NCBI GenBank assembly: GCA_947472795.1
Contig: CANJBL010000022.1
Span: 1 to 34,598, forward strand
Reading direction: 5' to 3'
Source: Fidelibacterota bacterium
GTDB lineage: Bacteria; Pseudomonadota; Alphaproteobacteria; Rhodospirillales; Rhodospirillaceae
DNA: 34,598 nt
Under the pieces are notes generated by a model that did no database searches, was not told where the DNA came from, and worked only from the letters and a program-made list of their open reading frames with translations. The position numbers and the translations under genes are program-made. Position 1 is the first letter of the stretch. Every line of letters starts with the position of its first letter. This document shows positions 3,429-23,669 of this stretch, one piece after another.

Positions 3429-4415
3429 ATGCGTCTTACTCCTCGTATGCTGTTCCTGGCTGGCGCCGCACTGGTTTCGGTGGGTGTCGTGGCCGACACC
3501 ATTCCAACGATCAAAATCCCCGATAGCTATTTTCTCGGTCAATCGCCAACTGCAAAAAATAAGCCCGCTTCAGCGGGCTTGGAAACCGCCGCTGCTGTGA
3601 ATGGCTCGCTCTACGCTGTTATCGCACCGACATATAACGGTGCGGGTGGGGCAAGCTCCTATATCCGCCTTTTCAACGGCGGCAGTGCTGCCGCGAACTT
3701 CAGTGTCACCGTCATCGGCTCTCCCTCGGGCACGACACTGGGCACAGCGAATATTTCTATCCCGGTCCGCGCGTCCATCCAGTACGCGCTAAACGGCACG
3801 AGCCCGCCGGGCATCCTGCAGCTTGCCAACGCAGCGGCGCTTCCTACCGGCGATACTGGTTACTCGCTCTACGTTCAGAGCACCGAGCCCACGGCAGGCT
3901 ATGCGCATGTGGTCTATAACTCGGTGAATACCTTCTTCGAGAACGTCAGCATTTGTTCGAACCTCCTCAATCAATCAGTGAAGTCAGTGGTCAACAGCGC
4001 CGTGCTGACCAACATCCACACGTCACTGTTCGCCAGCAATTATCCAGCTACGGTGACCATCCACAATTACTGGAATGCTCAAATCTCCTATCGTGCGACC
4101 GTGGTTGATGCGGCGACCGGTACAATTAAGGGGCAGTTCAATATTCCAATTGCCGCGAACGCTTCGTATTCGGCGCCGTGGAGCTTCTTCGAGCAGTCGG
4201 TGGGCTGGACACCTACCGCCGCCGAATTGCATGCCAATCTCGTCATAACAGATCCGGCAGGGGTTGCTCCTGCGGTCGTTCTCGGACAGACCATCACCAA
4301 TTCCAATTTTGCTGGTGGTCCTGCAGCCGTGAACATGTCCACGGTTTGTGCCGTGAATGCAGCGGTTGTCGCCAGCAGTGGTGGCGGCAGCGGCGGCGGC
4401 GGCATCAGCTACTAA
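3429..4415 (+). CDS. Secreted protein of unknown function with Gly-rich tail
   Basis: A 328-residue protein I cannot assign to a named family. A Sec signal peptide covers residues 1-22 (hydrophobic L-F-L-A-G-A-A-L-V-S-V-G-V-V-A). The rest is rich in Ser, Thr, Asn, Ala and Val with alternating hydrophobic residues, suggesting beta-sandwich or adhesin-like structure. Two Cys occur in the mature part (S-I-C-S-N and S-T-V-C-A-V) and may form a disulphide. The C-terminus is a flexible Ser/Gly tract (about residues 315-327). The start follows AGCGGAGG about eight bases upstream. The reading frame near residues 42-50 crosses a perfect hairpin that reads as a terminator on the other strand. Location outside the inner membrane is the only safe functional statement. 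Confidence 0.8.
   Translation: MRLTPRMLFLAGAALVSVGVVADTIPTIKIPDSYFLGQSPTAKNKPASAGLETAAAVNGSLYAVIAPTYNGAGGASSYIRLFNGGSAAANFSVTVIGSPSGTTLGTANISIPVRASIQYALNGTSPPGILQLANAAALPTGDTGYSLYVQSTEPTAGYAHVVYNSVNTFFENVSICSNLLNQSVKSVVNSAVLTNIHTSLFASNYPATVTIHNYWNAQISYRATVVDAATGTIKGQFNIPIAANASYSAPWSFFEQSVGWTPTAAELHANLVITDPAGVAPAVVLGQTITNSNFAGGPAAVNMSTVCAVNAAVVASSGGGSGGGGISY
3554..3580 (-). terminator. Intrinsic terminator facing the minus strand, inside a plus-strand gene
   Basis: The stem AAGCCCGC (3561-3568), loop TTCA and stem GCGGGCTT (3573-3580) are perfectly complementary. On the minus strand the hairpin is followed by ATTTTTT (complement of 3554-3560), the classic U-tract. It therefore reads as a Rho-independent terminator for transcripts running leftward, antisense to the secreted-protein gene. 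It also encodes in-frame residues of that gene, K-N-K-P-A-S-A-G-L. Confidence 0.6.
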
Positions 4416-4626: not shown

Positions 4627-5193
4627 TTACAGCACATCTCGCGGCGATTTCTGACCGATCTGAGGCAGCATACGCCTCAGGATGGCATCTTTGAGGATAA
4701 AGTGATGGTAGAGGGCGGCGCCCACGTGGGCGACCAGCAGCGCGTAGAGCAGATATTGTCCGTTGTCGTGCAAAGTCTGGAAGCGATGAGACAGCCGCAA
4801 TCCCAGAGGCACGATGCGCGGCAAGTCGAACAAGCCATAGACGGTAATGTCTCGGCCTCGGGCGGCAAGACCCACATAGCCCGTGATAGGCAATGCAAAC
4901 AGCGTTACATAAAGCAGACCATGGGTCGCCGCTGCAGCGACTCTTTGGCTTCGAGGGGTGCCTATCGGCAAGGCCGGGGCCGGATGGAACAGGCGCCAAA
5001 TCAAGCGGAAAGCCGCCAGCAGGACGATGCTAACGCCAATGGATTGATGAATGGCCAACGCTTGCTGCGTAGCCTCCGCATCGTCGGCATCACCTACGAT
5101 CAGGCCGAAAACTACGGTAACAGCAATGAGCAATGCAATGGCCCAGTGGAGAAAAATCGCCACAGGTCCAAACTTTTCCGGCGCCGATTGCAT
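4627..5193 (-). CDS. Cytochrome b561 family inner-membrane protein
   Basis: A 188-residue protein with four hydrophobic helices and the His residues expected for two b-type haems: F-L-H-W-A-I near the start (helix 1), A-I-H-Q-S-I-G (helix 2), A-A-T-H-G-L-L-Y (helix 3) and V-A-H-V-G-A-A-L-Y-H-H-F (helix 4). This is the pattern of the bacterial cytochrome b561 family (YodB/CybB-like), which moves electrons between quinol and a periplasmic or membrane partner. I take ATG 5193 as the start because it has GGAGGGG about ten bases upstream and the first helix follows directly; a longer frame to 5349 would add an uncharged leader with no family match. It is divergent from the cytochrome operon, with only 49 bases between the two start codons, which ties it to that system. 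Confidence 0.9.
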   Translation of the reverse strand: MQSAPEKFGPVAIFLHWAIALLIAVTVVFGLIVGDADDAEATQQALAIHQSIGVSIVLLAAFRLIWRLFHPAPALPIGTPRSQRVAAAATHGLLYVTLFALPITGYVGLAARGRDITVYGLFDLPRIVPLGLRLSHRFQTLHDNGQYLLYALLVAHVGAALYHHFILKDAILRRMLPQIGQKSPRDVL

Positions 5194-5242
5194 GGTACAG
5201 TACCCCTCCGTTGGGTCAGACGATAATCCTGGAGGGAAGAAA
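5194..5242. promoter_or_regulatory. 49-bp divergent gap between the b561 gene and the cytochrome operon
   Basis: The start codons of the b561 gene (5193, minus) and the haem-protein gene (5243, plus) are separated by 49 bases. These contain both ribosome-binding sites (GGAGGGG reading leftward, TGGAGGG reading rightward) and a GATAAT at 5222-5227. There is too little room for two full sigma-70 promoters, so at least one promoter must lie inside the opposite gene. I see no convincing -35 element. Confidence 0.4.
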
Positions 5243-6190
5243 GTGTCATCAATAATTTCTTGGAAACTTGCGCTCAGCTCGGCCGCTGCCGGCATGTTGC
5301 TCTGTTCATCGCAAGCCTTTGCCGTCGATTGGGCGAAGGTGCCGGCCACGGATATCGCGCTGTTCTATCCAGCGCAGATCTCCATGGAGAAACTGGTGAC
5401 GAAAGGCCGCCATAGCGGCGGATCCAAGTTCCTTGCGGGTAAGAACTGCTTCGCTTGTCACGGCAATATCGATGAGCGCTCCATCGGCGGTTTGATGGTT
5501 GACGATCCGGACAACGAACCGAAGCCTATTGTCGGGAAACCCTCCTTCGTAAACGTGAAAGTCAAAGTCGCTCACGACACCGACAAGGTTTACATCAACC
5601 TCGATTTTGATCCCGGTAAGCAGCCTAACTCCATGATGGACAAGGAGTTCGAGACCAAAGTGGCGCTGATGATCGACGATGGTGCTGTACCCGAGGTGGG
5701 TCGCGCGGGATGTTATGCAGTCTGCCACGACAATCTCAACAGCATGCCGAGTGCACGCGAAGAGACGACCAAATATGTTTCGGCATCGCGTGTGGTCATG
5801 TCGCCCATGGGCGGATCAGAGATCAAGCCGCAGGCTGATATCGACAAGCTGCACGCCGCGGGCGGATTCATTGAATACTGGCAGGCGCGCTTGAAGCCCG
5901 GCGCAAAGGCTGTCCCTGTAGATGGCTGGATTCTGGAGAAGCGCACCGAGAACAAGACCCCTGCCGTTGCAACTGACGCTACGCAAAATGGGACGGCTTG
6001 GTCCGTGACATTCAGCCGCAAACTCAAAGGCGCCGGCGAGAACCACAAAGATATCGTTCCCGGTAAGATCTACAACGTCGGATTCTCAATTCACGCGGGC
6101 TACACGCAGCAGCGCTTCCACTATGTCTCGTTGGAACGCACGCTGGTGCTTGACGAAGGCAAAGCCGACTTCGTCGCCGCCAAGCAATAG
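5243..6190 (+). CDS. Periplasmic c-type cytochrome with ethylbenzene-dehydrogenase-like haem domain
   Basis: A 315-residue exported protein. GTG 5243 is chosen because GGAGG (5231-5235) is well placed and the signal peptide begins there (about residues 1-27, ending C-S-S-Q-A-F-A). A CXXCH haem c site (N-C-F-A-C-H-G) follows at about residue 68. A second site reads G-C-Y-A-V-C-H-D, with three residues between the Cys. The stretch from about residue 90 to the end resembles the haem-binding gamma-subunit domain of ethylbenzene and DMSO-type dehydrogenases, including D-G-W and the late H-Y-V-S region. The likely role is periplasmic electron carriage between the inner-membrane b561 and the downstream MtrA-type cytochrome, inferred from the operon. 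The gap to the next gene is only 12 bases. Domain assignment is from recall and moderately sure. Confidence 0.82.
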   Translation: MSSIISWKLALSSAAAGMLLCSSQAFAVDWAKVPATDIALFYPAQISMEKLVTKGRHSGGSKFLAGKNCFACHGNIDERSIGGLMVDDPDNEPKPIVGKPSFVNVKVKVAHDTDKVYINLDFDPGKQPNSMMDKEFETKVALMIDDGAVPEVGRAGCYAVCHDNLNSMPSAREETTKYVSASRVVMSPMGGSEIKPQADIDKLHAAGGFIEYWQARLKPGAKAVPVDGWILEKRTENKTPAVATDATQNGTAWSVTFSRKLKGAGENHKDIVPGKIYNVGFSIHAGYTQQRFHYVSLERTLVLDEGKADFVAAKQ

Positions 6191-6202
6191 CGATGGAGTA
6201 AT

Positions 6203-7147
6203 ATGCAGGGCCGTCTTTTTTGGTACGTACTGACGGCCCTGTGCTTGGTGTCTTTGGCGCCAAGCCCCTCGGCGCGCGCGGCCGATATTCCCGCGCGCGG
6301 CATTCTGGGCGATGCCAGTGCACCGCAAGCCTGTACGAAGTGTCACGACGAGCCAGCGCTTTCCAGCATTTTTCATACCGCTCACATGGTAAAGGCCGAT
6401 CCGCGTACGCGCGTTGAAACGGAGGGCTGCCAAAACTGCCATGGCGACAGCAGTGGCCACGCAGCCATCATGCGACCCAATCAGGTGCGCCCGGCGCCAG
6501 GACGCGTTTTTAAGGGCCCGCAAGCGTCGCCGGTGGATGTGCAGAATGAAGCCTGTGTGAGTTGTCACCAGGGCGGACCTACCATGCACTGGCCTGGAAG
6601 CGCCCACGCGGCCTCCGACATAGCCTGCACCAGCTGCCATCAGTCTCACGCTGTACGTGACCCGGTTTTGGTGAAAGTCAGCCAACCTGTAATTTGTTTT
6701 ACCTGTCACGCGGATCGCCGGGCCGATGCGCTGAAGCCGTCTCACCATCCAGTTCTGGAAGGTCGCATGGCGTGCTCCGACTGCCACAATCCTCACGGCA
6801 CTGTTGGCCCAAGCCTGCTTAAGGCCGGCACGGTCAATGATACCTGTCTCACATGTCACGATGAGAAGCGCGGGCCCTTTTTATGGGAGCACGCGCCCGT
6901 TCAAGAACAGTGCACCATTTGCCATACGCCCCATGGCAGCGTTCAGCAGACGTTGCTGAAGCAGCGCGTACCCTATCTGTGCCAGGATTGCCACGACAGC
7001 TCGCAGCACAATAGCCAACCCTTCAGCGGCACCAATCTGCCGGGCAGTGTTCTGCCGTCGCGTCAGCTCGTGCAGCGTGCTTGCCTCAACTGTCATAGCG
7101 AGATTCATGGGTCCAACCACCCGGGTGGCGTGAGGTTCACCCGATGA
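6203..7147 (+). CDS. mtrA: Decahaem c-type cytochrome, MtrA/DmsE family
   Basis: A 314-residue protein with a Sec signal peptide (residues 1-26) and exactly ten CXXCH sites: CTKCH, CQNCH, CVSCH, CTSCH, CFTCH, CSDCH, CLTCH, CTICH, CQDCH and CLNCH. The first begins at residue 44 and the last lies about 20 residues from the C-terminus. Length and haem number match MtrA/DmsE/MtoA, which sit inside an outer-membrane barrel and carry electrons through it. Extra His residues between the haem sites supply distal ligands. It has no long N-terminal extension like that of PioA. It is preceded by GGAG at 6194-6197 and its TGA overlaps the ATG of the barrel gene (ATGA, 7144-7147), a coupling expected for a one-to-one complex. 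Direction of electron flow cannot be read from sequence. Confidence 0.95.
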   Translation: MQGRLFWYVLTALCLVSLAPSPSARAADIPARGILGDASAPQACTKCHDEPALSSIFHTAHMVKADPRTRVETEGCQNCHGDSSGHAAIMRPNQVRPAPGRVFKGPQASPVDVQNEACVSCHQGGPTMHWPGSAHAASDIACTSCHQSHAVRDPVLVKVSQPVICFTCHADRRADALKPSHHPVLEGRMACSDCHNPHGTVGPSLLKAGTVNDTCLTCHDEKRGPFLWEHAPVQEQCTICHTPHGSVQQTLLKQRVPYLCQDCHDSSQHNSQPFSGTNLPGSVLPSRQLVQRACLNCHSEIHGSNHPGGVRFTR

Positions 7148-9417
7148 AACGCTTCCGCGCCTCCCTGTTGTTTGCCCCGCTACTGTTTGCTGGCTCGGCG
7201 CTTTTGCCATTTGCGCCTTCCGCGCATGCCGCTGCGGACGACAATCCCTTCGCCTTCGGTGCTGCCGCGCCAACACCCGAGCCGCCGCCTTTATTCTTGA
7301 ATTCTGCGGAGGCGGGCGTTGGCTATTTGAGCCACGATTCCTACTTCTTCGGGCGCTATGGTGGGGTAACAGGACAGGGACCGTTTGCACTGTTCAAGAG
7401 TACTCTTAACGGTGGCGATGATTGGGACAAGGGCCGCCGTTTCTGGAATGCTGATGCCGCCGTTTATGGCTTCGACACAGTGTCGATTTACATCCGTGGT
7501 GGTCAGCGAGGAGCGTGGAAGGCTTCGGGCTTTTTCGATTCTTTCACGAGGTCCTATACGGAGTCCGCCCGCACGCCTTTCGATGGTGTTGGTACTGGCT
7601 CGCTGACGTTACCCACCAATTGGCAAGGGGCTGCAAATTCTGCGCAATTCTCGCGGCTGATTCAGGATTTGAAGCCGCTCGCTCTGAAAGTCGATTGGAA
7701 AACCGTGGGTGGCGACCTCGTTATGAATCCGTATGACGGTTACGAAGTGCGTCTCGGCTTCTCCTACCGCAATCGCCAGGGCATACGCGGTCAGAGTTTG
7801 CCTTTTGGGCAGGAATCGCTATTTGCGGTTGGCGTCTTCTTCCCGCAGCCTGTCGATTATGACACGCGACAAGCCAGTGCATCCGTTGCTTACACCGGCA
7901 AACAATTGCAGTGGTCGCTCGGTTATACCGCTTCGCTGTTCAGCAGTGCTGTGGACTCCGTCCAAGTTCCCAATCCATTCTCCCGTTCCCTAGGTGCTCC
8001 ATGGCCTGCTGGGGCGTTCGCCGGGTATCCCTTTGCCATTGCACAGTATGGACTACCGCCGGATACCAGCTCCCACCAAGTCCTCGCCACCGGAGCTTAT
8101 AGCCTGCTGCCCAAGACGCGCATGACCTTGCGCGTCTCCTATATGATCCAAAGCCAGAACGATCCGTTTCTGCCCTATACATCCTCGCCGCAGCTGGTGG
8201 CGCGCACGCCGCTGCCGCGAACGTCTTTGGATGGCAAGGTTCACAAGACCCACATCGCAGTCGGCCTAACGTCGCGCGAGTGGAAGGATATTGATATCGC
8301 CGCAAGTTACAGCTTCGACAGCCGGCAGAATCTTACGCCCATGGATGTATATAGCTATGTTGCGAACGAGGCGCAGGATCAGGTGGTGCCGCTGGTGGCC
8401 GGCAATAGCCGTTATATCCGCCTCAGTTTGCCGCATAGCTTTACGTTTCATCAAGCCAAGGCGGAAGCCGGGTACCGCATCCTACCGCGCACGCGTCTTT
8501 CGCTGACATATACCGGCGACTTCCAGCACCGCAGCGATCAGGAAGTCGCACGCACGCAAGAGCAAACCATCAAAGCCAAGGCCCTTACTACCTTTGCCAC
8601 CGGCTCCGCCTGGATCTCCACCAGCTATGCGGCGCGCGACGGCTCGCATTACGACGTGGCGCTGCCGTGGGTACTGAGTCACCTGCCGGCCTACCTGAAC
8701 GCCGCGCCGCAAAACGCTTCTATCGAGCAGCCGCTCCTGCGCAAATACAATCTGGCTGATCGCCGCAGAACGGAAACCAAGGGCGGCGCCACCTATGACA
8801 TTACGCCCGCCGCGGCGGTGAATATCTCTGGCGGCTTTGCCCACGATGATTATCTGCATTCGCTCATGGGCTTGCGTACATCCAGGACTATAATGTTCGA
8901 CACCGACGTGTCCTATGTCGTGAACAAGGATGTCTCCGCTTCAGCTTTCTACAGTTTTCAGCAGATCCATGCAGATCAGAACGGCTATTTGATCTTCGAC
9001 ACCACCAATGGCAATCCTGCGCGAGCCTGGAGCGGTCAGAACAAAGACACAATTCATACAGCGGGAACCAAACTCACTTGGCAGGCTTCGCCCAAGGTGA
9101 AATTCGATAGTTCCTACACGCTGTCCGATGGCACCAACCGTATCCGCATTCAATCTAATCCTGTGAGGATAGACAGCACTTCGGCGCCGCTTCCGGGCGC
9201 GCGCGATATCACGCACGCAGCATCGCTTGCGGGCGAATATGCATTCCGCGCCAATACGTCGCTGCGCCTGGGCTACGCCCTCGAGCGTCACATTAGCCGC
9301 GATTGGCAATATGCGGGTCTCGGTACAGCTCCCGTGTCTCAAATCCTGGGTTCCGGGATCGAGCCACCGCGTTATACGGCTCACGTGATCTGGGCCACAA
9401 CCCGCTATCAATTCTGA
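7144..9417 (+). CDS. mtrB: MtrB/PioB-type outer-membrane beta-barrel
   Basis: A 757-residue protein with a signal peptide ending near A-H-A-A-A (about residue 30), then long runs of alternating aromatic and polar residues typical of a large beta-barrel, finishing in Y-Q-F, an aromatic C-terminal signature for BAM insertion. The N-terminal G-Y-L-S-H-D-S-Y-F-F-G-R-Y-G-G region matches the MtrB/PioB family, whose barrel of about 26 strands sheathes the MtrA cytochrome. There is no Cys in the protein, so the N-terminal CXXC found in Shewanella MtrB is missing; this is known to vary in the family. It is translationally coupled to the decahaem gene, which supports a 1:1 conduit. Confidence 0.93.
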   Translation: MKRFRASLLFAPLLFAGSALLPFAPSAHAAADDNPFAFGAAAPTPEPPPLFLNSAEAGVGYLSHDSYFFGRYGGVTGQGPFALFKSTLNGGDDWDKGRRFWNADAAVYGFDTVSIYIRGGQRGAWKASGFFDSFTRSYTESARTPFDGVGTGSLTLPTNWQGAANSAQFSRLIQDLKPLALKVDWKTVGGDLVMNPYDGYEVRLGFSYRNRQGIRGQSLPFGQESLFAVGVFFPQPVDYDTRQASASVAYTGKQLQWSLGYTASLFSSAVDSVQVPNPFSRSLGAPWPAGAFAGYPFAIAQYGLPPDTSSHQVLATGAYSLLPKTRMTLRVSYMIQSQNDPFLPYTSSPQLVARTPLPRTSLDGKVHKTHIAVGLTSREWKDIDIAASYSFDSRQNLTPMDVYSYVANEAQDQVVPLVAGNSRYIRLSLPHSFTFHQAKAEAGYRILPRTRLSLTYTGDFQHRSDQEVARTQEQTIKAKALTTFATGSAWISTSYAARDGSHYDVALPWVLSHLPAYLNAAPQNASIEQPLLRKYNLADRRRTETKGGATYDITPAAAVNISGGFAHDDYLHSLMGLRTSRTIMFDTDVSYVVNKDVSASAFYSFQQIHADQNGYLIFDTTNGNPARAWSGQNKDTIHTAGTKLTWQASPKVKFDSSYTLSDGTNRIRIQSNPVRIDSTSAPLPGARDITHAASLAGEYAFRANTSLRLGYALERHISRDWQYAGLGTAPVSQILGSGIEPPRYTAHVIWATTRYQF

Positions 9418-9439
9418 TGAGCCTCTAACGGCAAAGAGA

Positions 9440-11047
9440 TTGCCCATGCTGCCGACCAAACAGCCTTTTGAACGCATCGCTCTCAATCGCGTGACGTTCG
9501 GTGCCCGGCCAGAGGATATAGATGCCGTGCGCCGCATGGGTTGGCAGGCCTGGGTCGCCGATCAACTGGCGCCGCCACTCGACGATGAGCCTGCGATTCT
9601 GGAACGTATCGCGCCGCAGACCATGCGGATTAAATACGCCGTACAGTTGCCGGCAGGCGATTCACCGGGTTGGCCGGCAATCGATGAACGCCGCAAGTTC
9701 AACTATTGGCGTACCGATATCACTTCCATTTGGAGGATGGTGGTGCGCACGGAATATGATATCGCGCCCAACGAGCGCGCGCGTATCCAAACAGAACTTG
9801 GCGCTGCCACCTGGATCCGTAACGCCCACGCCGATTACCAAGTGCGTGAGTTCACGACGGATTTCTGGAATTCGCATTTCAACGTCGGTCGCCAGGAAGA
9901 CGTCTATGCTTCGGCGGCGTTGGCTGTTTACGATCGCCAGGTCGTCCGACCGAATGTTTTTGGCAACTTCCGCGTTTTTCTGGAAGCCGTGGCGACGAGT
10001 GCCGCCATGCTGCGTTACCTGAATAACGCCGAAAGCGGTGCTACGGCTCCCACCGAGAATTATGTGCGTGAGCTTTTAGAGTTGCATACTCTCGGAGCTC
10101 CCGCCTATTTCGGCGTTGGGGTAACGGCTCCTGGCACTGTGAACGTTGCTGGCGCGACGGTAGCTACTGGTTTCACGGATGCCGATATCGTTCAGGCCGC
10201 GCGTGCTTTTTCGGGATGGACGATCGAACACGGCCAGGCGAGCGCCAATGGTCCGTTGCCTTTCACGGGCAAGTTTATCTTCAATCCCGTGCAGCACAAT
10301 TCGGCGGCCAACATGTTCATGGGGGTGGATCTCTCGCGTTTGCAGGGGATGGCGCAGGGCCGTAAGATTCTTGACATCGTTGCCGCGCATCCAGCCACGG
10401 CAAATTTTGTTTGCGGCAAGCTGTGCCGGCGCATCTACGGCGATCACCCGCCATCCGCGGCCTTTAACCGCGCTCTCGCCGCATGGACCGAACACCACGA
10501 CAAGTCAGACCAACTCAAACGGGTGGTCTCGGCCATTCTGCTGGGTGAAGATATTGGCGCTGGCCCTGTGGTGAAGGTCCGCAGGCCTTATGAACGCATG
10601 ATGGCGCTCTTCCGCACCACTGGCACCATCGTCAACGCCTATGACGGTGCGGCGGACTCCCTGCAATCGGTAGGCGACGGCGCCTATGCATGGCCCACGC
10701 CGGAAGGAAGACCGGACCGCAATGCTGATCAGCTATCCGCGGCTGCGAACTTACGCTTCTGGAATCTGATGTTTCAAACGCTCGATCATCCGGCTTTCCA
10801 GACCAGCTTTGCGAGCCAGACTCCGCGTGAACTCGCCGCAAATCCGGAGGGCATCGTCGCGTATTGGGTGGAGCGTATGGTGGGCGCGCAGTTGCGCCCG
10901 GAAGGTATGCAAGCCCTCGTCAGCGATGCCTTGGCGCCGATCGGTATCATCGCTGCGTATCGCTCGGGCGGTATCCTCAACATCGAAGGTGCCTCGCGAC
11001 GTTTGGCGGTGCTGATAGCGACCTCGCCAGAATTTGCGTTGCGATAA
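9440..11047 (+). CDS. DUF1800 family protein
   Basis: A 535-residue protein with the DUF1800 signatures: L-N-R-V-T-F-G-A-R-P near the start, E-N-Y-V-R-E-L-L-E-L-H-T-L-G-A about one-third in, F-S-G-W-T-I and the later L-C-R-R-I-Y. Function is unknown; DUF1800 genes very commonly sit directly upstream of a DUF1501 gene, as here, and the pair is thought to act in the envelope. No cleavable signal peptide is obvious. ATG 9440 and in-frame ATG 9446 are both possible; the purine-rich AAAGAG (9433-9438) is better spaced for 9446. It follows the barrel gene by 22 bases on the same strand, so it is most likely part of the conduit operon. It carries no CXXCH. Confidence 0.9.
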   Translation: MPMLPTKQPFERIALNRVTFGARPEDIDAVRRMGWQAWVADQLAPPLDDEPAILERIAPQTMRIKYAVQLPAGDSPGWPAIDERRKFNYWRTDITSIWRMVVRTEYDIAPNERARIQTELGAATWIRNAHADYQVREFTTDFWNSHFNVGRQEDVYASAALAVYDRQVVRPNVFGNFRVFLEAVATSAAMLRYLNNAESGATAPTENYVRELLELHTLGAPAYFGVGVTAPGTVNVAGATVATGFTDADIVQAARAFSGWTIEHGQASANGPLPFTGKFIFNPVQHNSAANMFMGVDLSRLQGMAQGRKILDIVAAHPATANFVCGKLCRRIYGDHPPSAAFNRALAAWTEHHDKSDQLKRVVSAILLGEDIGAGPVVKVRRPYERMMALFRTTGTIVNAYDGAADSLQSVGDGAYAWPTPEGRPDRNADQLSAAANLRFWNLMFQTLDHPAFQTSFASQTPRELAANPEGIVAYWVERMVGAQLRPEGMQALVSDALAPIGIIAAYRSGGILNIEGASRRLAVLIATSPEFALR

Positions 11048-11059
11048 GGAGTTGGTGTT

Positions 11060-12343
11060 ATGAAACTATCTCGTCGCGCACTTATCGCCTCCGCTTTGAC
11101 CGCCGGTGCCGGCGGCGCGGCTTTCACCGCGTTGTCGCCCTCGTTACGCGTGGCATTCAATGCCGCGAAAACGCACGGCGCTACGACCCACTCTCGCGAT
11201 ATTCTCGTCGTGGTCTTCTTGCGCTTCGGCAGCGATGGTCTTCAGATGGTCGCGCCTGCCGAAGATGGCGACTATCAGGACAATCGGCCAACTATTGCCG
11301 TGAGAAGTTCCGGCGATAACCCGGGTATCCATATCGGGGCCCTGGACAGAGTGCCGTTCTTTTTCTCGCCCCATATCCCCGAACTGAAACCGCTCTATGA
11401 CGCGGGGCACCTCGCAGTGGTTCATGCCGTCGGCTTGCCGACCCATACGCGCAGCCACTTCGAGAGCCAGGATATGATGGAACGAGGTGTCACTGAAAAC
11501 ACAGGCCCTTTGAACGGAGGGTGGGTGGCACGTCATCTTATGGCGCACGACCTCGGCCTCGCTCCCCTGGCTGCCATTGCCAGCGCAGCCGATGTGCAGG
11601 CGTCCTTGCGCGGATATGGAGGTGCGGTCGCTATTCCCGATGTCACGCAATTCAATGTCACGGGCGGCGATTTCAATTTGAATGTCATCGAAGCTTTGAA
11701 TAAAGGCAGCGAGCCCCACGCCGCCGGCGTACGCGCCACCATTGGGATGATCCGCTCCGTGCGCGAAAGCCTAAAACACATCACCGAGGGCTATACGACG
11801 TCACAAGACTACCCGACGGGTGAGTTCGCCACTTCAATGCGCTCGATCGCAAATCTGGTGAAGATGGATACAGGCATGGAAGTGGCGACGGTCGATTTCA
11901 GCGGCTGGGACCATCACTATAAGATGAACACATACTTTCCTGGGCATGCGCAGCAGCTTTCCAAGACATTGGCGGCTTTCTGGGAAGACATGAAGGACTA
12001 TCAACACCGCCTCACCGTTGTGACGATGACTGAGTTCGGACGCCGTTTGCAGGAAAACACGGCGGGAGGCACGGATCATGGTGCTGGGTCGTTCATGTTT
12101 GTGCTTGGGGGTGCTGTGAACGGAGGCAAGATCTATGGCCGCTGGCCGGGTCTCAAGCCGAACCAACTACGCGAGGGCGATCTTGCTATCACGACAGACC
12201 TGCGTCAGGTTTTGCAGGAAGTCCTCGTGAAGCGCCGGCAAGAGTCCAACTTACATGCGGTCTTTCCTAGTTTGGGCTACGAACCTCTTGGCATGCTCAA
12301 TGGTCTCTCATCAGCCGAGTCTCTCAGTCTCCCTCGTACATAA
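11060..12343 (+). CDS. DUF1501 family protein with Tat-like signal
   Basis: A 427-residue DUF1501 protein. The N-terminus L-S-R-R-A-L-I-A-S-A-L-T-A-G-A resembles a twin-arginine signal, as is usual in the family, so the mature protein is probably periplasmic or exported. Typical motifs are R-F-G-S-D-G-L near residue 55, H-F-E-S-Q-D about residue 135, D-F-S-G-W-D-H-H about residue 280 and T-E-F-G-R-R with G-T-D-H-G-A-G about residues 320-340. These His/Asp clusters recall the alkaline-phosphatase/sulfatase superfamily metal site, though activity is unproven. AAGGAG (11046-11051) precedes the ATG and overlaps the DUF1800 stop. It is the last gene of the operon; no terminator was seen after it. 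Confidence 0.9.
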   Translation: MKLSRRALIASALTAGAGGAAFTALSPSLRVAFNAAKTHGATTHSRDILVVVFLRFGSDGLQMVAPAEDGDYQDNRPTIAVRSSGDNPGIHIGALDRVPFFFSPHIPELKPLYDAGHLAVVHAVGLPTHTRSHFESQDMMERGVTENTGPLNGGWVARHLMAHDLGLAPLAAIASAADVQASLRGYGGAVAIPDVTQFNVTGGDFNLNVIEALNKGSEPHAAGVRATIGMIRSVRESLKHITEGYTTSQDYPTGEFATSMRSIANLVKMDTGMEVATVDFSGWDHHYKMNTYFPGHAQQLSKTLAAFWEDMKDYQHRLTVVTMTEFGRRLQENTAGGTDHGAGSFMFVLGGAVNGGKIYGRWPGLKPNQLREGDLAITTDLRQVLQEVLVKRRQESNLHAVFPSLGYEPLGMLNGLSSAESLSLPRT

Positions 12344-12464
12344 ATGGCCTCCGTCTGTGTCTGATCACGGACATTTTACCTCAAAATAGGAAACGGCGGT
12401 TTTAAGTCCCTCTGGATCAAACGTTCTACGGTTGTGAATTCGCGAGGATTTGCGAGGAAGACCG

Positions 12465-12520: not shown

Positions 12521-13747
12521 ATGGCGTCAAATTCCAACGTGCCGCCTTTCCAAGCCATGATCCTGGAAGATCATGACTTTCAGCGGAAAATTGGCGCACA
12601 TGTATTGAAAACCTGTGGTGCTGCCGAGGTTCTGGAAGCCGCCAATGGCAGCGACGCGATCGCGCTTCTGGATGCCCGCCAGAATCCTCTCGATATCATG
12701 GTCTGCGACCTGAATATGCCCGGTATGGATGGGCTGGAATTCCTGCGCCACATCGGCCTGCGCCAGAATTCTGTGTCGGTCATTCTGGCCAGTGGCATGG
12801 AAGCCTCCATCCTTCGGGCCGCCGAAATGATGGCCCGCAGCTATGGCGTGCGCATTATTGGCGCTGTGGAAAAGCCGCTCTCGGAAGGCAAGTTGATGCC
12901 GCTGGTCCTGCGGCATTTCAGCCAGCATCTGGTATCCCCGCGCAAGCAAGTGGCGGCCATGCCCGTCGCGGAGATTAAGAACGGCATCGCTCGTGGTGAA
13001 TTTGAACCCTTCTTCCAGCCCAAAGTGGATATGCACACCTGCAAGCTCGCGGGTGTGGAGGCGCTTATGCGCTGGCGCCATCCGAAAGCCGGCATGATCC
13101 AACCGGGAGCCTTCATCCCGGTCATGGAGGCCAACGGGATGATCAATGACGTCACTTTCGTCCTGGTGGAGAAGTCCTTACAAGCGGCGCGCGACTGGCG
13201 CGATCAGGGATATCCCATCACCGTGGCAATCAATTTGTCCGTGGACTCCCTGCGCGACACGACCCTGCCTGATCGCTTGATGCGAATGGTCACAGCCGCG
13301 GGGCTCGCCCCCGACAGCTTAACCGTGGAAGTCACGGAAACAGTGGCTATGACGGATCTTGGGCATTCACTGGAGACCTTGGCGCGGTTGCGCATGAAAG
13401 GCTTCGGACTTTCAATCGACGACTACGGCACCGGCTTCTCGTCCATGCAGCAGCTGACTCGTGTGCCGTTCAGCGAACTTAAGATCGACCAGGTCTTCGT
13501 CACGGGCTCCAGTAAACAAGACATCCTGCAAGCTCTATTGACTGCAAGCGTCAGCATGACCAAGCGCTTAAAGCTGAAGAGTGTCGCGGAAGGCGTCGAA
13601 ACAGAACAGGATTGGCAAAGCGTGAGTCGGGTCGGCTGCGATGTGGCGCAAGGCTATTTCATAGGGCGGCCAATGCCGCGGGACGAGCTCATCGGCTGGT
13701 ACCGCGACTGGATGGGTGCCCACAACAATGTAGCTGCATCGGAGTAA
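12521..13747 (+). CDS. Response regulator with EAL domain, cyclic-di-GMP phosphodiesterase
   Basis: A 408-residue, two-domain protein. The receiver domain (about residues 10-135) has acidic E16-D17, the phospho-acceptor Asp63 in C-D-L-N-M-P-G-M-D-G, and Lys118 in E-K-P. The EAL domain (about 150-395) keeps the residues of active enzymes: E180-A-L-x-R-W, I-N-L-S, V-T-E-T, D-D-Y-G-T-G-F-S-S, E-L-K-I-D, A-E-G-V-E-T and Q-G-Y-F-I-G-R-P. It should hydrolyse cyclic-di-GMP to pGpG under control of phosphorylation, like RocR or PvrR of Pseudomonas. The start has a very strong AGGAGGA site. An Hpt gene follows 33 bases downstream and is its likely phosphodonor. No histidine kinase is in the window. 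Confidence 0.95.
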   Translation: MASNSNVPPFQAMILEDHDFQRKIGAHVLKTCGAAEVLEAANGSDAIALLDARQNPLDIMVCDLNMPGMDGLEFLRHIGLRQNSVSVILASGMEASILRAAEMMARSYGVRIIGAVEKPLSEGKLMPLVLRHFSQHLVSPRKQVAAMPVAEIKNGIARGEFEPFFQPKVDMHTCKLAGVEALMRWRHPKAGMIQPGAFIPVMEANGMINDVTFVLVEKSLQAARDWRDQGYPITVAINLSVDSLRDTTLPDRLMRMVTAAGLAPDSLTVEVTETVAMTDLGHSLETLARLRMKGFGLSIDDYGTGFSSMQQLTRVPFSELKIDQVFVTGSSKQDILQALLTASVSMTKRLKLKSVAEGVETEQDWQSVSRVGCDVAQGYFIGRPMPRDELIGWYRDWMGAHNNVAASE

Positions 13748-13780
13748 GGCCGTCGTATCGACCACGAATGAGGTGAAGCC

Positions 13781-14164
13781 ATGATTGCTGCAGATCCGTT
13801 AACGCGGCCGGATTTTGACTACGAGGCTCTGAAGGAAATTTTCGGCAACAACTCGGACGCTCTGCGAAAAGCCTTGCGCCGATTTGATGAGTCCTTGGTA
13901 AGCGATCTCGCTGATTTGAAACGGGCACTTCAAGCGCACGACGTACTGCAAACGGAATTGATTGCTCACCGCTTAAAGGGCGCCGCAATGGTCGCCGGTG
14001 CGAATGCCTTGGCGGATGCATCGCAGACCTTGGAGGTCGCTGCGCGCAATGCAAGCAATCCCGATTGGTCGGCACTTTCAGACCTAATGCACCATGTCAC
14101 GCGCGCGACGGATGCACTCGCCGTGTTGATTCGCGAAAAGCGCGACACACCGCTCTTAAATTGA
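13781..14164 (+). CDS. Stand-alone Hpt phosphotransfer protein
   Basis: A 127-residue all-helical protein with the Hpt core L-I-A-H63-R-L-K-G-A-A, where His63 is the phosphorylated residue, flanked by helices typical of the four-helix bundle. Such proteins relay phosphate between a hybrid histidine kinase and a response regulator in the cytosol. The gene lies 33 bases after the REC-EAL gene on the same strand, with a ribosome-binding site at AGGTGAAG (13770-13777), so a shared transcript is likely. The partner kinase must be encoded elsewhere. Confidence 0.9.
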   Translation: MIAADPLTRPDFDYEALKEIFGNNSDALRKALRRFDESLVSDLADLKRALQAHDVLQTELIAHRLKGAAMVAGANALADASQTLEVAARNASNPDWSALSDLMHHVTRATDALAVLIREKRDTPLLN

Positions 14165-23021: not shown

Positions 23022-23669
23022 ATGTCCCTGAGTCTCTTCCAACGCTTCGGCAAGACCATAAAGCAGACCGCCATGGTCCTCGGCGTGCTTTGTGCGTCCG
23101 CCGCCGCGCCGTCAATCGCAGATGCTGCTCCGATCGGCAATGCGTCCTTTGGTATCGGTGGTGCTTTCACTCTTCCGTCGGGTGCTAATCTCGGCAACAC
23201 AAATTCCCTCTTCATCAGCAATGGCGGCATGATTATTGTCACCGCTGGGGATACGATGGATTTGGCGGGCCTGGTTAACCTCGGTATGAGCGGCACTCTG
23301 CAAGACTTGCCGGATATCGCGGGTTTTACCCCCATCAATGGCTTTATCAGCATTGGCGGTGGCGCGGTTTCCGTCGATCTTTCGTCTCTGACCGTCATCA
23401 GCCAAACCGGCCCTGTGCCTGGCTACATCAACCTCGCGGGCGATGCCGTCATCCATGCGCCGGGCTATGATCCAACCTCTGGCACGCTGACCTTCACGGG
23501 CACGTCTTCCGACAACAGCACCTTCACGCTGGCTGTGACGACATCCGCGTCCTCTTCCGGCGTTCCCGAGCCGATGTCTCTGGCACTCCTGGGCCTGGGC
23601 CTGGGCCTGCTTGCTCTATTTGCCGTCGCCCGTCGTCGTGAAGCCTTTGCGGCATTCCCAACGGCGTAA
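23022..23669 (+). CDS. PEP-CTERM sorting-domain protein
   Basis: A 215-residue exported protein. An N-terminal signal peptide (about residues 12-36, ending I-A-D-A-A) precedes a mature domain rich in Gly, Ser, Thr and Asn with alternating hydrophobics, probably beta-sandwich. The C-terminus has the PEP-CTERM sorting signal: V-P-E-P (about residues 181-184), a hydrophobic helix L-A-L-L-G-L-G-L-G-L-L-A-L-F-A-V and a basic A-R-R-R. Exosortase (EpsH/XrtA type) cleaves such proteins at the inner membrane and delivers them to the surface or biofilm matrix; no exosortase is in the window. A sigma-54 promoter and strong terminator bracket it, so it is a single-gene unit. Confidence 0.92.
   Translation: MSLSLFQRFGKTIKQTAMVLGVLCASAAAPSIADAAPIGNASFGIGGAFTLPSGANLGNTNSLFISNGGMIIVTAGDTMDLAGLVNLGMSGTLQDLPDIAGFTPINGFISIGGGAVSVDLSSLTVISQTGPVPGYINLAGDAVIHAPGYDPTSGTLTFTGTSSDNSTFTLAVTTSASSSGVPEPMSLALLGLGLGLLALFAVARRREAFAAFPTA

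Follow-up and report, generated by a model that had tools for sequence, protein, structure and literature searches.

Porin-cytochrome conduits and the DUF1800-DUF1501 pair

The extracellular DMSO reductase system DmsEFAB combines a DmsE-type decahaem cytochrome with an MtrB-type outer-membrane barrel and has further genes beside these two. Conduits without an extracellular multihaem part are, according to the available text of PMC6344600, represented by PioAB(C) and MtoAB(-CymA), and excerpts of PMC6933298 describe for Telmatospirillum an alphaproteobacterial DmsE-type MtrA together with MtrB, where MtrC was not found and a di-haem c-552 was proposed as the outer partner. The proteins DUF1800 and DUF1501 appear in a different context, their genes being co-located with bacterial chitin synthases and a Tat motif being present on DUF1501, as related in the accessible portion of PMC5122149. 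A system that unites MtrB with DUF1800 and DUF1501 was not found in the literature searched, in agreement with the original prediction for the locus that we describe here. Its MtrAB conduit is of a known type, and our results point to DUF1800 and DUF1501 as an undescribed accessory part of it, which would tie two uncharacterised families to a concrete system with a testable and clean phylogenetic pattern. We lean towards reading the locus as an MtrC-less MtrAB conduit with a dedicated, non-redox, Tat-exported accessory pair, and weigh this below against other explanations.

A conserved gene block around an MtrC-less MtrAB conduit

The locus lies within a stretch of 34,598 nucleotides that was analysed as a whole (the window), and its ORF coordinates and its matches to Pfam and NCBIfam profiles, all above the curated cut-offs, agree with the gene content, order and spacings as first described. 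At its centre, a DmsE/MtrA-family decahaem c-type cytochrome (6203..7147, plus strand; TIGR03508, 291 bits with a cut-off of 192.2; 10 CxxCH motifs) and an MtrB/PioB-family outer-membrane beta-barrel (7144..9417, plus strand; TIGR03509, 344.6 bits with a cut-off of 240.05; PF11854, 375.9 bits with a cut-off of 23) form the two family-defined halves of a conduit. They are preceded by an EB_dh-type haem protein (5243..6190, plus strand), the ethylbenzene-dehydrogenase-like nature of which is borne out by its match to PF09459 (110.7 bits, cut-off 33.3), and followed by a DUF1800 protein (9440..11047, plus strand; PF08811, 303.3 bits, cut-off 26.1) and a DUF1501 protein (11060..12343, plus strand; PF07394, 107.7 bits, cut-off 27). 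A cytochrome b561-type membrane protein (4627..5193, minus strand; PF01292, 94 bits, cut-off 30.1) is encoded divergently, 49 nt from the EB_dh-type gene, and the further gaps are 12 nt from EB_dh to MtrA, -4 nt from MtrA to MtrB, 22 nt from MtrB to DUF1800 and 12 nt from DUF1800 to DUF1501. Comparison with homologues makes the ATG at 9446 a more likely start of DUF1800 than the TTG at 9440, and the gap between MtrB and DUF1800 would then be 28 nt.

Two features of the original description had to be revised. The conduit and the DUF pair are not fused but separate neighbouring genes, and the conserved block begins further upstream than had been assumed, at a secreted protein without any Pfam or NCBIfam match (orf3429; 3429..4415, plus strand). 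This gene is present in all 20 relative loci with enough upstream sequence, being cut by the contig end in one of them. These genomes have several copies of its family, which is found also in genomes without mtr genes. A weak terminator-like hairpin directly 3' of DUF1501 (12353..12372, plus strand) is not significant alone because the terminator scan of the region returned 10 such sites where 8.6 were expected by shuffling, and promoter and terminator scans of the region did no better overall than on shuffled sequence.

Apart from MtrA, none of the window ORFs of at least 60 codons has three or more CxxCH motifs, so that there is no MtrC-like cytochrome in the window; together with the family matches, this upholds the view of an MtrAB-type conduit without MtrC nearby. 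NapC/CymA (PF03264) gave 0 matches in the window's genome, which is 96.9% complete, and neither a HiPIP (pioC-type) family nor a molybdopterin DmsA or iron-sulphur DmsB subunit was detected among the 22 window ORFs scanned. Where NapC or CymA is usual beside MtrAB, with NapC found in two sister-family loci, the EB_dh-type gene is a constant neighbour in this bacterial family (20/20 loci). Its product has one CxxCH and one CxxxCH motif as candidate c-haem sites, with C69/C72/H73 and C157/C161/H162 invariant in 13 of 13 aligned sequences, and searches against PDB profiles returned 2ivf_C, the gamma subunit of ethylbenzene dehydrogenase (E 2.1e-6), and 7b04_C, nitrite oxidoreductase C (E 6.5e-5). 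It is likely a periplasmic electron shuttle to MtrA. The divergent b561, an optional candidate for the inner-membrane quinol dehydrogenase, occurs in 12 of the 21 loci with sufficient upstream sequence (the window and 11 of 20 relative loci), and the complete path from quinone to the outside that had been proposed is thus only partly supported, with the haem protein in place but b561 not general.

The direction of electron flow bears on all readings of the locus. A PioAB/MtoAB-style oxidation of Fe(II) or a similar donor outside the cell, feeding an oxygen-respiring chain, is compatible with any of them and may be entertained tentatively, though we would not expect it. The lack of MtrC in the window, the lack of a CymA/NapC match in the genome and the presence of a haem-copper oxidase would all suit such a chain, but no HiPIP family is found among the window ORFs scanned, and there is no sign of Calvin-cycle autotrophy because no RuBisCO large subunit was found in the genome at about 97% completeness.

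DUF1800 and DUF1501 are linked to one MtrB subfamily

In all 24 distinct loci with an MtrB of this subfamily (the window, 20 loci from the genome search and three more from genome contigs), DUF1800 and then DUF1501 lie directly 3' of mtrB and on the same strand, and a recount of order and strand agrees in 21 of 21. The linked block is carried by a group of bacteria known without cultivation, among them several from lakes. By profile search, neither family was found near other MtrBs in any of the 52 loci fetched for comparison, some of which are contig ends (e.g., L058 and L115); further MtrB-like matches (weak, fragmentary, some longer) lie outside this set, as does L060, in which no MtrB was found by profile. 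The profile searches are more sensitive than the class-wide MtrB search, which used one protein as query and scored at most two candidates per genome. The proposed link of DUF1800 and DUF1501 to mtrAB is therefore real, conserved and clade-specific, with fixed placement throughout the subfamily and no random placement seen. Spacing is equally tight, at -4 to 41 nt between mtrB and DUF1800 in 19 of 20 relative loci (the twentieth value, 2123 in L038, is artificial because the mtrB frame is split there) and -1 to 11 nt between DUF1800 and DUF1501 in 19 of 20 (73 nt in L047, perhaps from a miscalled start), and the gap value of L063 is a consequence of reversed gene order.

The same separation is seen in phylogenies, where the DUF-linked MtrBs (23 of 62 rows) and the mtr-linked DUF1800s (24 of 42 rows) each form one side of a branch with an SH-aLRT of 100. 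The MtrB tree covers all linked loci but L059 (23 of 24) and, from 37 of the 52 comparison loci, 39 rows that have no DUFs, after removal of rows with fewer than 400 matched residues, including L055. This last protein is a further MtrB from the same genus as the window. Over 23 loci, the MtrB and DUF1800 trees have 15 of 20 splits in common with a mirror-tree r of 0.845, an agreement that is expected from shared descent in related genomes and says nothing of contact. Among 24 chosen genomes, the mtr-type DUF1800 is absent from all ten that lack this MtrB, seven of which keep a solo DUF1800, with DUF1501 seen beside it in four; two of the four genomes that belong to the window's genus but lack this MtrB are less than 90% complete. 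The DUF1800 profile was built mostly from mtr-linked sequences and favours a score gap between the types, so the DUF1800 tree is the better test.

These patterns also bear on the idea that the two genes are ordinary passengers, i.e., an ancestral DUF1800-DUF1501 pair that landed behind mtrAB and is co-transcribed while doing its usual, unrelated job. Solo pairs in the same genomes fit this view, and the pair does not need the conduit because the window's genome has three such pairs away from mtr genes; it also joins different operons, given its co-location with bacterial chitin synthase genes in the consulted part of PMC5122149. Regional synteny is partly conserved, and plain vertical inheritance may explain part of the order because the upstream DUF1329 and ECF pair is likewise kept in 10 to 12 of the 23 relative loci, and in G009 the same RR-EAL gene lies downstream of the block as in the window. 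Nevertheless, the block from orf3429 to DUF1501 occurs without upstream ECF/DUF1329 genes within 10 kb in G009 and in the second G017 copy, and such blocks with other surroundings speak against plain synteny as the sole cause. The gene that follows DUF1501 in the window recurs downstream in no more than 3 of 23 relative loci, and the pair is kept in all 24 loci despite MtrB identities to the window down to about 46-49%. Taken with the absence of the mtr-type DUF1800 from all ten chosen relatives without this MtrB, this makes mere passengers unlikely. A chance neighbourhood is ruled out because the linkage is conserved in 23 further loci (24/24 versus 0/52).

DUF1501 carries a twin-arginine signal and DUF1800 has none

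DUF1501 has a twin-arginine signal, both arginines of which (R5 and R6) are unchanged in all 23 aligned sequences, and its predicted fold is like that of hydrolases and transferases of the alkaline phosphatase superfamily, in a model of only moderate confidence (pLDDT 65.9) whose best Foldseek match, at E 1.1e-3, falls just short of 0.001. D339, H340, G341, S132 and H133 are invariant across the 23 aligned sequences and may correspond to catalytic residues of that superfamily. No signal peptide is detected in DUF1800, with hardly room for one in 11 of 24 loci, and this protein is likely a passenger or partner of DUF1501.

Alternatively, the pair would stand in for MtrC or DmsAB as the terminal module that faces the substrate. 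DUF1501 would then hold a metal or ester substrate at the surface, where electrons would be delivered or withdrawn through the conduit. The pair is encoded directly 3' of mtrB, at the site of a nine-haem ORF in L116, L117 and L118, and the modularity of parts attached to MtrAB is discussed in the text available of PMC8805035. DUF1501 itself would contribute the export motif, the superfamily-like fold and the invariant D339/H340/G341 (23/23). However, neither protein has a CxxCH motif or, in 23 aligned sequences each, a conserved cysteine, and DUF1800 by itself lacks an export signal. We also know of no member of the alkaline phosphatase superfamily that is a redox enzyme, and such a module seems quite improbable. 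We give equally little credence to a Tat-exported complex of DUF1501 and DUF1800 as obligate subunits of a new MtrC-less conduit class, acting as a non-haem metal-binding cap or processing unit; with such a cap, MtrAB would exchange electrons with a dissolved partner (e.g., humic or organophosphate-bound) in lake water. The original suggestion that the pair replaces MtrC as an electron-carrying surface part is not supported, given the absence of CxxCH and conserved cysteines, and the fold of DUF1501 and the signal-less DUF1800 also speak against it.

For the dedicated accessory pair that we favour, we infer that DUF1501 would fold in the cytoplasm and carry the signal-less DUF1800 along, presumably as a complex, both leaving via Tat. 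Beyond the inner membrane, the pair would serve the conduit, most likely by helping to assemble it or by modifying the envelope or surface around it, with a chemistry of the alkaline phosphatase superfamily type or as a binding-only relic of such. Electrons would pass in one or the other direction along a chain that links the quinone pool (via b561 if present), the di-haem EB_dh protein, MtrA enclosed by the MtrB barrel and an outer partner, either dissolved or bound to a surface. If the pair is needed, extracellular electron transfer here has a component that is missed by cytochrome-only surveys.

Comparison with described systems

The EB_dh-MtrA-MtrB core is also found in sister family f22 (L216 and L228), preceded there by NapC, and an EB_dh-MtrA-MtrB-b561 arrangement in G804 of the same phylum (L130), but none of these has DUF1800 or DUF1501; at least in the sister family, the core thus exists without the pair. 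Conversely, the chitin synthase loci share the same DUF1800-DUF1501 pair but have no electron conduit attached. The Telmatospirillum locus resembles ours as an MtrAB without MtrC, although the term DUF is absent from the available text of that paper (PMC6933298). Unlike DmsEFAB, the window has no molybdopterin or iron-sulphur subunit among the ORFs scanned. With Shewanella MtrCAB, it shares adjacent genes for an MtrA-family decahaem cytochrome and an MtrB-family barrel, yet it differs in that neither MtrC nor any further multihaem cytochrome accompanies MtrA in the window, NapC/CymA has no match in its genome and DUF1800-DUF1501 lie downstream of mtrB. Like PioAB(C) and MtoAB(-CymA), finally, the conduit has no extracellular multihaem part, but an EB_dh haem protein (with b561 in 12/21 loci) is found here instead of HiPIP or CymA/MtoD, and the DUF pair is attached to it.

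Operon structure and genomic context

The window, part of a 3.2 Mb genome in 51 contigs (96.9% complete), carries at positions 4627-12343 a divergent cytochrome b561 gene together with genes for an EB_dh-family haem protein, a DmsE/MtrA-family decahaem cytochrome, an MtrB/PioB barrel, DUF1800 and DUF1501, and re-reading of the genes and their family matches confirmed this gene set as originally predicted. The spacings reported for these genes proved exact on recount, though homologues suggest an alternative DUF1800 start (ATG at 9446). The block is headed by orf3429 (3429-4415), a secreted protein whose family is matched as many as 15 times in single genomes of the window's bacterial family, mtr-free genomes included. 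Upstream of the block, the minus strand encodes an ECF sigma factor and an anti-sigma-like partner, the latter with a weak zf-HC2 match (1600-2891), and the plus strand carries a DUF1329 gene (199-1599). Elsewhere in the window, inspection by eye identified a small Hpt-like ORF following a response-regulator EAL phosphodiesterase (RR-EAL; 12521-14164) and a PEP-CTERM-like C-terminal sorting signal on a small secreted protein without Pfam match (23022-23669).

The window MtrB is the single PF11854 match in its genome, and DUF1800 and DUF1501 have four matches each, arranged as four neighbouring pairs. No ORF with at least three CxxCH motifs was found near the other three pairs in the stretches of 18-19 kb searched; the pair on contig C5 is adjoined by an ORF with one CxxCH. 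Pairs apart from mtr genes also occur in several genomes (L061, L062, L063, G009:C2, G001:C32 and G011:C19); three genomes carry two DUF1800 genes ca. 3 kb apart, and the gene order is reversed at L063.

Conservation within the MtrB subfamily

PF11854 matched in 24 of 99 genomes, the window's own counted. We searched the neighbourhoods of relatives with window proteins and profiles and assembled 24 distinct subfamily loci, comprising the window, 20 loci from the profile search of genomes, and L145, L151 and L153. A scan of named genomes gave 22 loci, 19 of them on contigs that, to judge by length, were in the set before; Baikal and Erken appear among the sample names, and by kinship these contigs belong to the same family as the window. 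At all 24 loci, mtrB is followed directly by DUF1800 and next by DUF1501 on the same strand (21/21 on recount), though a contig end truncates the DUF1501 gene at L039. Among the 23 relative loci, MtrB, DUF1800 and DUF1501 were each found 23 times, MtrA 21 times, EB_dh and orf3429 20 times each and b561 11 times as a raw count; because three of these loci start within genes (two in mtrB, one in mtrA), this amounts to 21/21 for MtrA, 20/20 for EB_dh and orf3429, and 11/20 for b561. Of the genes further out, the ECF sigma factor was found in 12, the anti-sigma gene in 10, DUF1329 in 11 and the downstream RR-EAL gene in 3 of the 23. One mtrB copy (L038; G013:C145:5557-7791) contains one in-frame TAG, either through misassembly or because the gene is broken.

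The orf3429-DUF1501 block also occurs in differing surroundings. ECF and DUF1329 genes are absent within 10 kb upstream of it at L139 in genome G009, where RR-EAL still lies downstream, and at L156. The latter is the second of two whole-block copies (L155 and L156) in G017, a 76% complete MAG; their upstream surroundings differ and they match piecewise at 64-72% DNA identity, and G017 could be a mixed MAG.

Single origin and joint absence

The 24 mtr-linked DUF1800s are separated from 18 DUF1800s encoded away from mtr genes by a branch with SH-aLRT support of 100, and the same support separates 23 DUF-linked MtrBs from 39 others. Across 23 shared loci, 15 of 20 splits agree between the MtrB and DUF1800 trees, and patristic distances correlate at 0.845 (maximum among 2000 permutations, 0.289), though much of this agreement would be expected from descent alone among related genomes. 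In all 14 of 24 chosen genomes that have this MtrB subfamily, a DUF1800 of at least 872 bits adjoins MtrB, whereas the other ten (four from the window's genus) have none above 777 bits and three of them no match at all, with a profile built mostly from mtr-linked sequences and thus favouring such a gap. Seven solo DUF1800s from these ten genomes fall outside the mtr-linked clade.

MtrB searches, each counting the window genome, gave 44 matches in 317 genomes of the order, 5 in 385 of the class and 46 in 398 of the phylum, 10 of the latter under the family cut-off. From part of all search matches we fetched 52 loci with other MtrBs, some of them short contig ends: 38 (L052, L055, L057, L058 and L101-L134) and 14 (L216-L229). 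Profile searches of these neighbourhoods found DUF1800 or DUF1501 at none of the 52, against 24/24 subfamily loci, so that the proposed link of the pair to mtrAB holds clade-wide in the loci examined. In the pair's stead, 18 of the 38 loci have an ORF of at least 600 codons with at least eight CxxCH motifs near mtrAB. The further proposal that the pair replaces MtrC is unsupported.

Proposed electron path

The EB_dh protein contains CxxCH and CxxxCH motifs whose four cysteines and two histidines are invariant in 13/13 aligned sequences, other lineages included, making two c-haem sites likely. Against solved structures, its profile matched the gamma subunit of ethylbenzene dehydrogenase at E 2.1e-6 and subunit C of nitrite oxidoreductase at E 6.5e-5, both electron-relay subunits. 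Of the 52 other loci, six (L052, L130, L216, L219, L226 and L228) likewise have EB_dh immediately upstream of MtrA; L130 adds a b561 gene, and L216 and L228, from a sister family, show the order NapC-EB_dh-MtrA-MtrB. With no match to NapC in the window genome, b561 is a candidate quinone-side partner there, though 9 of 20 relatives lack it at this locus. The window genome encodes a haem-copper oxidase, and no match to the RuBisCO large subunit was found in it.

Comparison with known systems

MtrB, DUF1800 and DUF1501 were not found together in the open-licence PMC papers searched. In PMC10654088, ethylbenzene dehydrogenase alongside MtrA/MtrB refers to archaeal FoxC and not to an Mtr cluster. 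Other studies describe porin-cytochrome systems in lakes (PMC6344600, PMC5615132), the main-text portions of the latter making no mention of DUF1501, term DUF1501 uncharacterised (PMC4452313), and place DUF1800 and DUF1501, the latter with a Tat motif, beside bacterial chitin synthases (PMC5122149). On balance, we lean towards the operon representing a new MtrAB conduit variant with DUF1800/DUF1501 as a dedicated non-redox module. MtrAB without MtrC is described in Telmatospirillum (PMC6933298), and MtrAB has been treated as a core that receives additional parts (PMC8805035).
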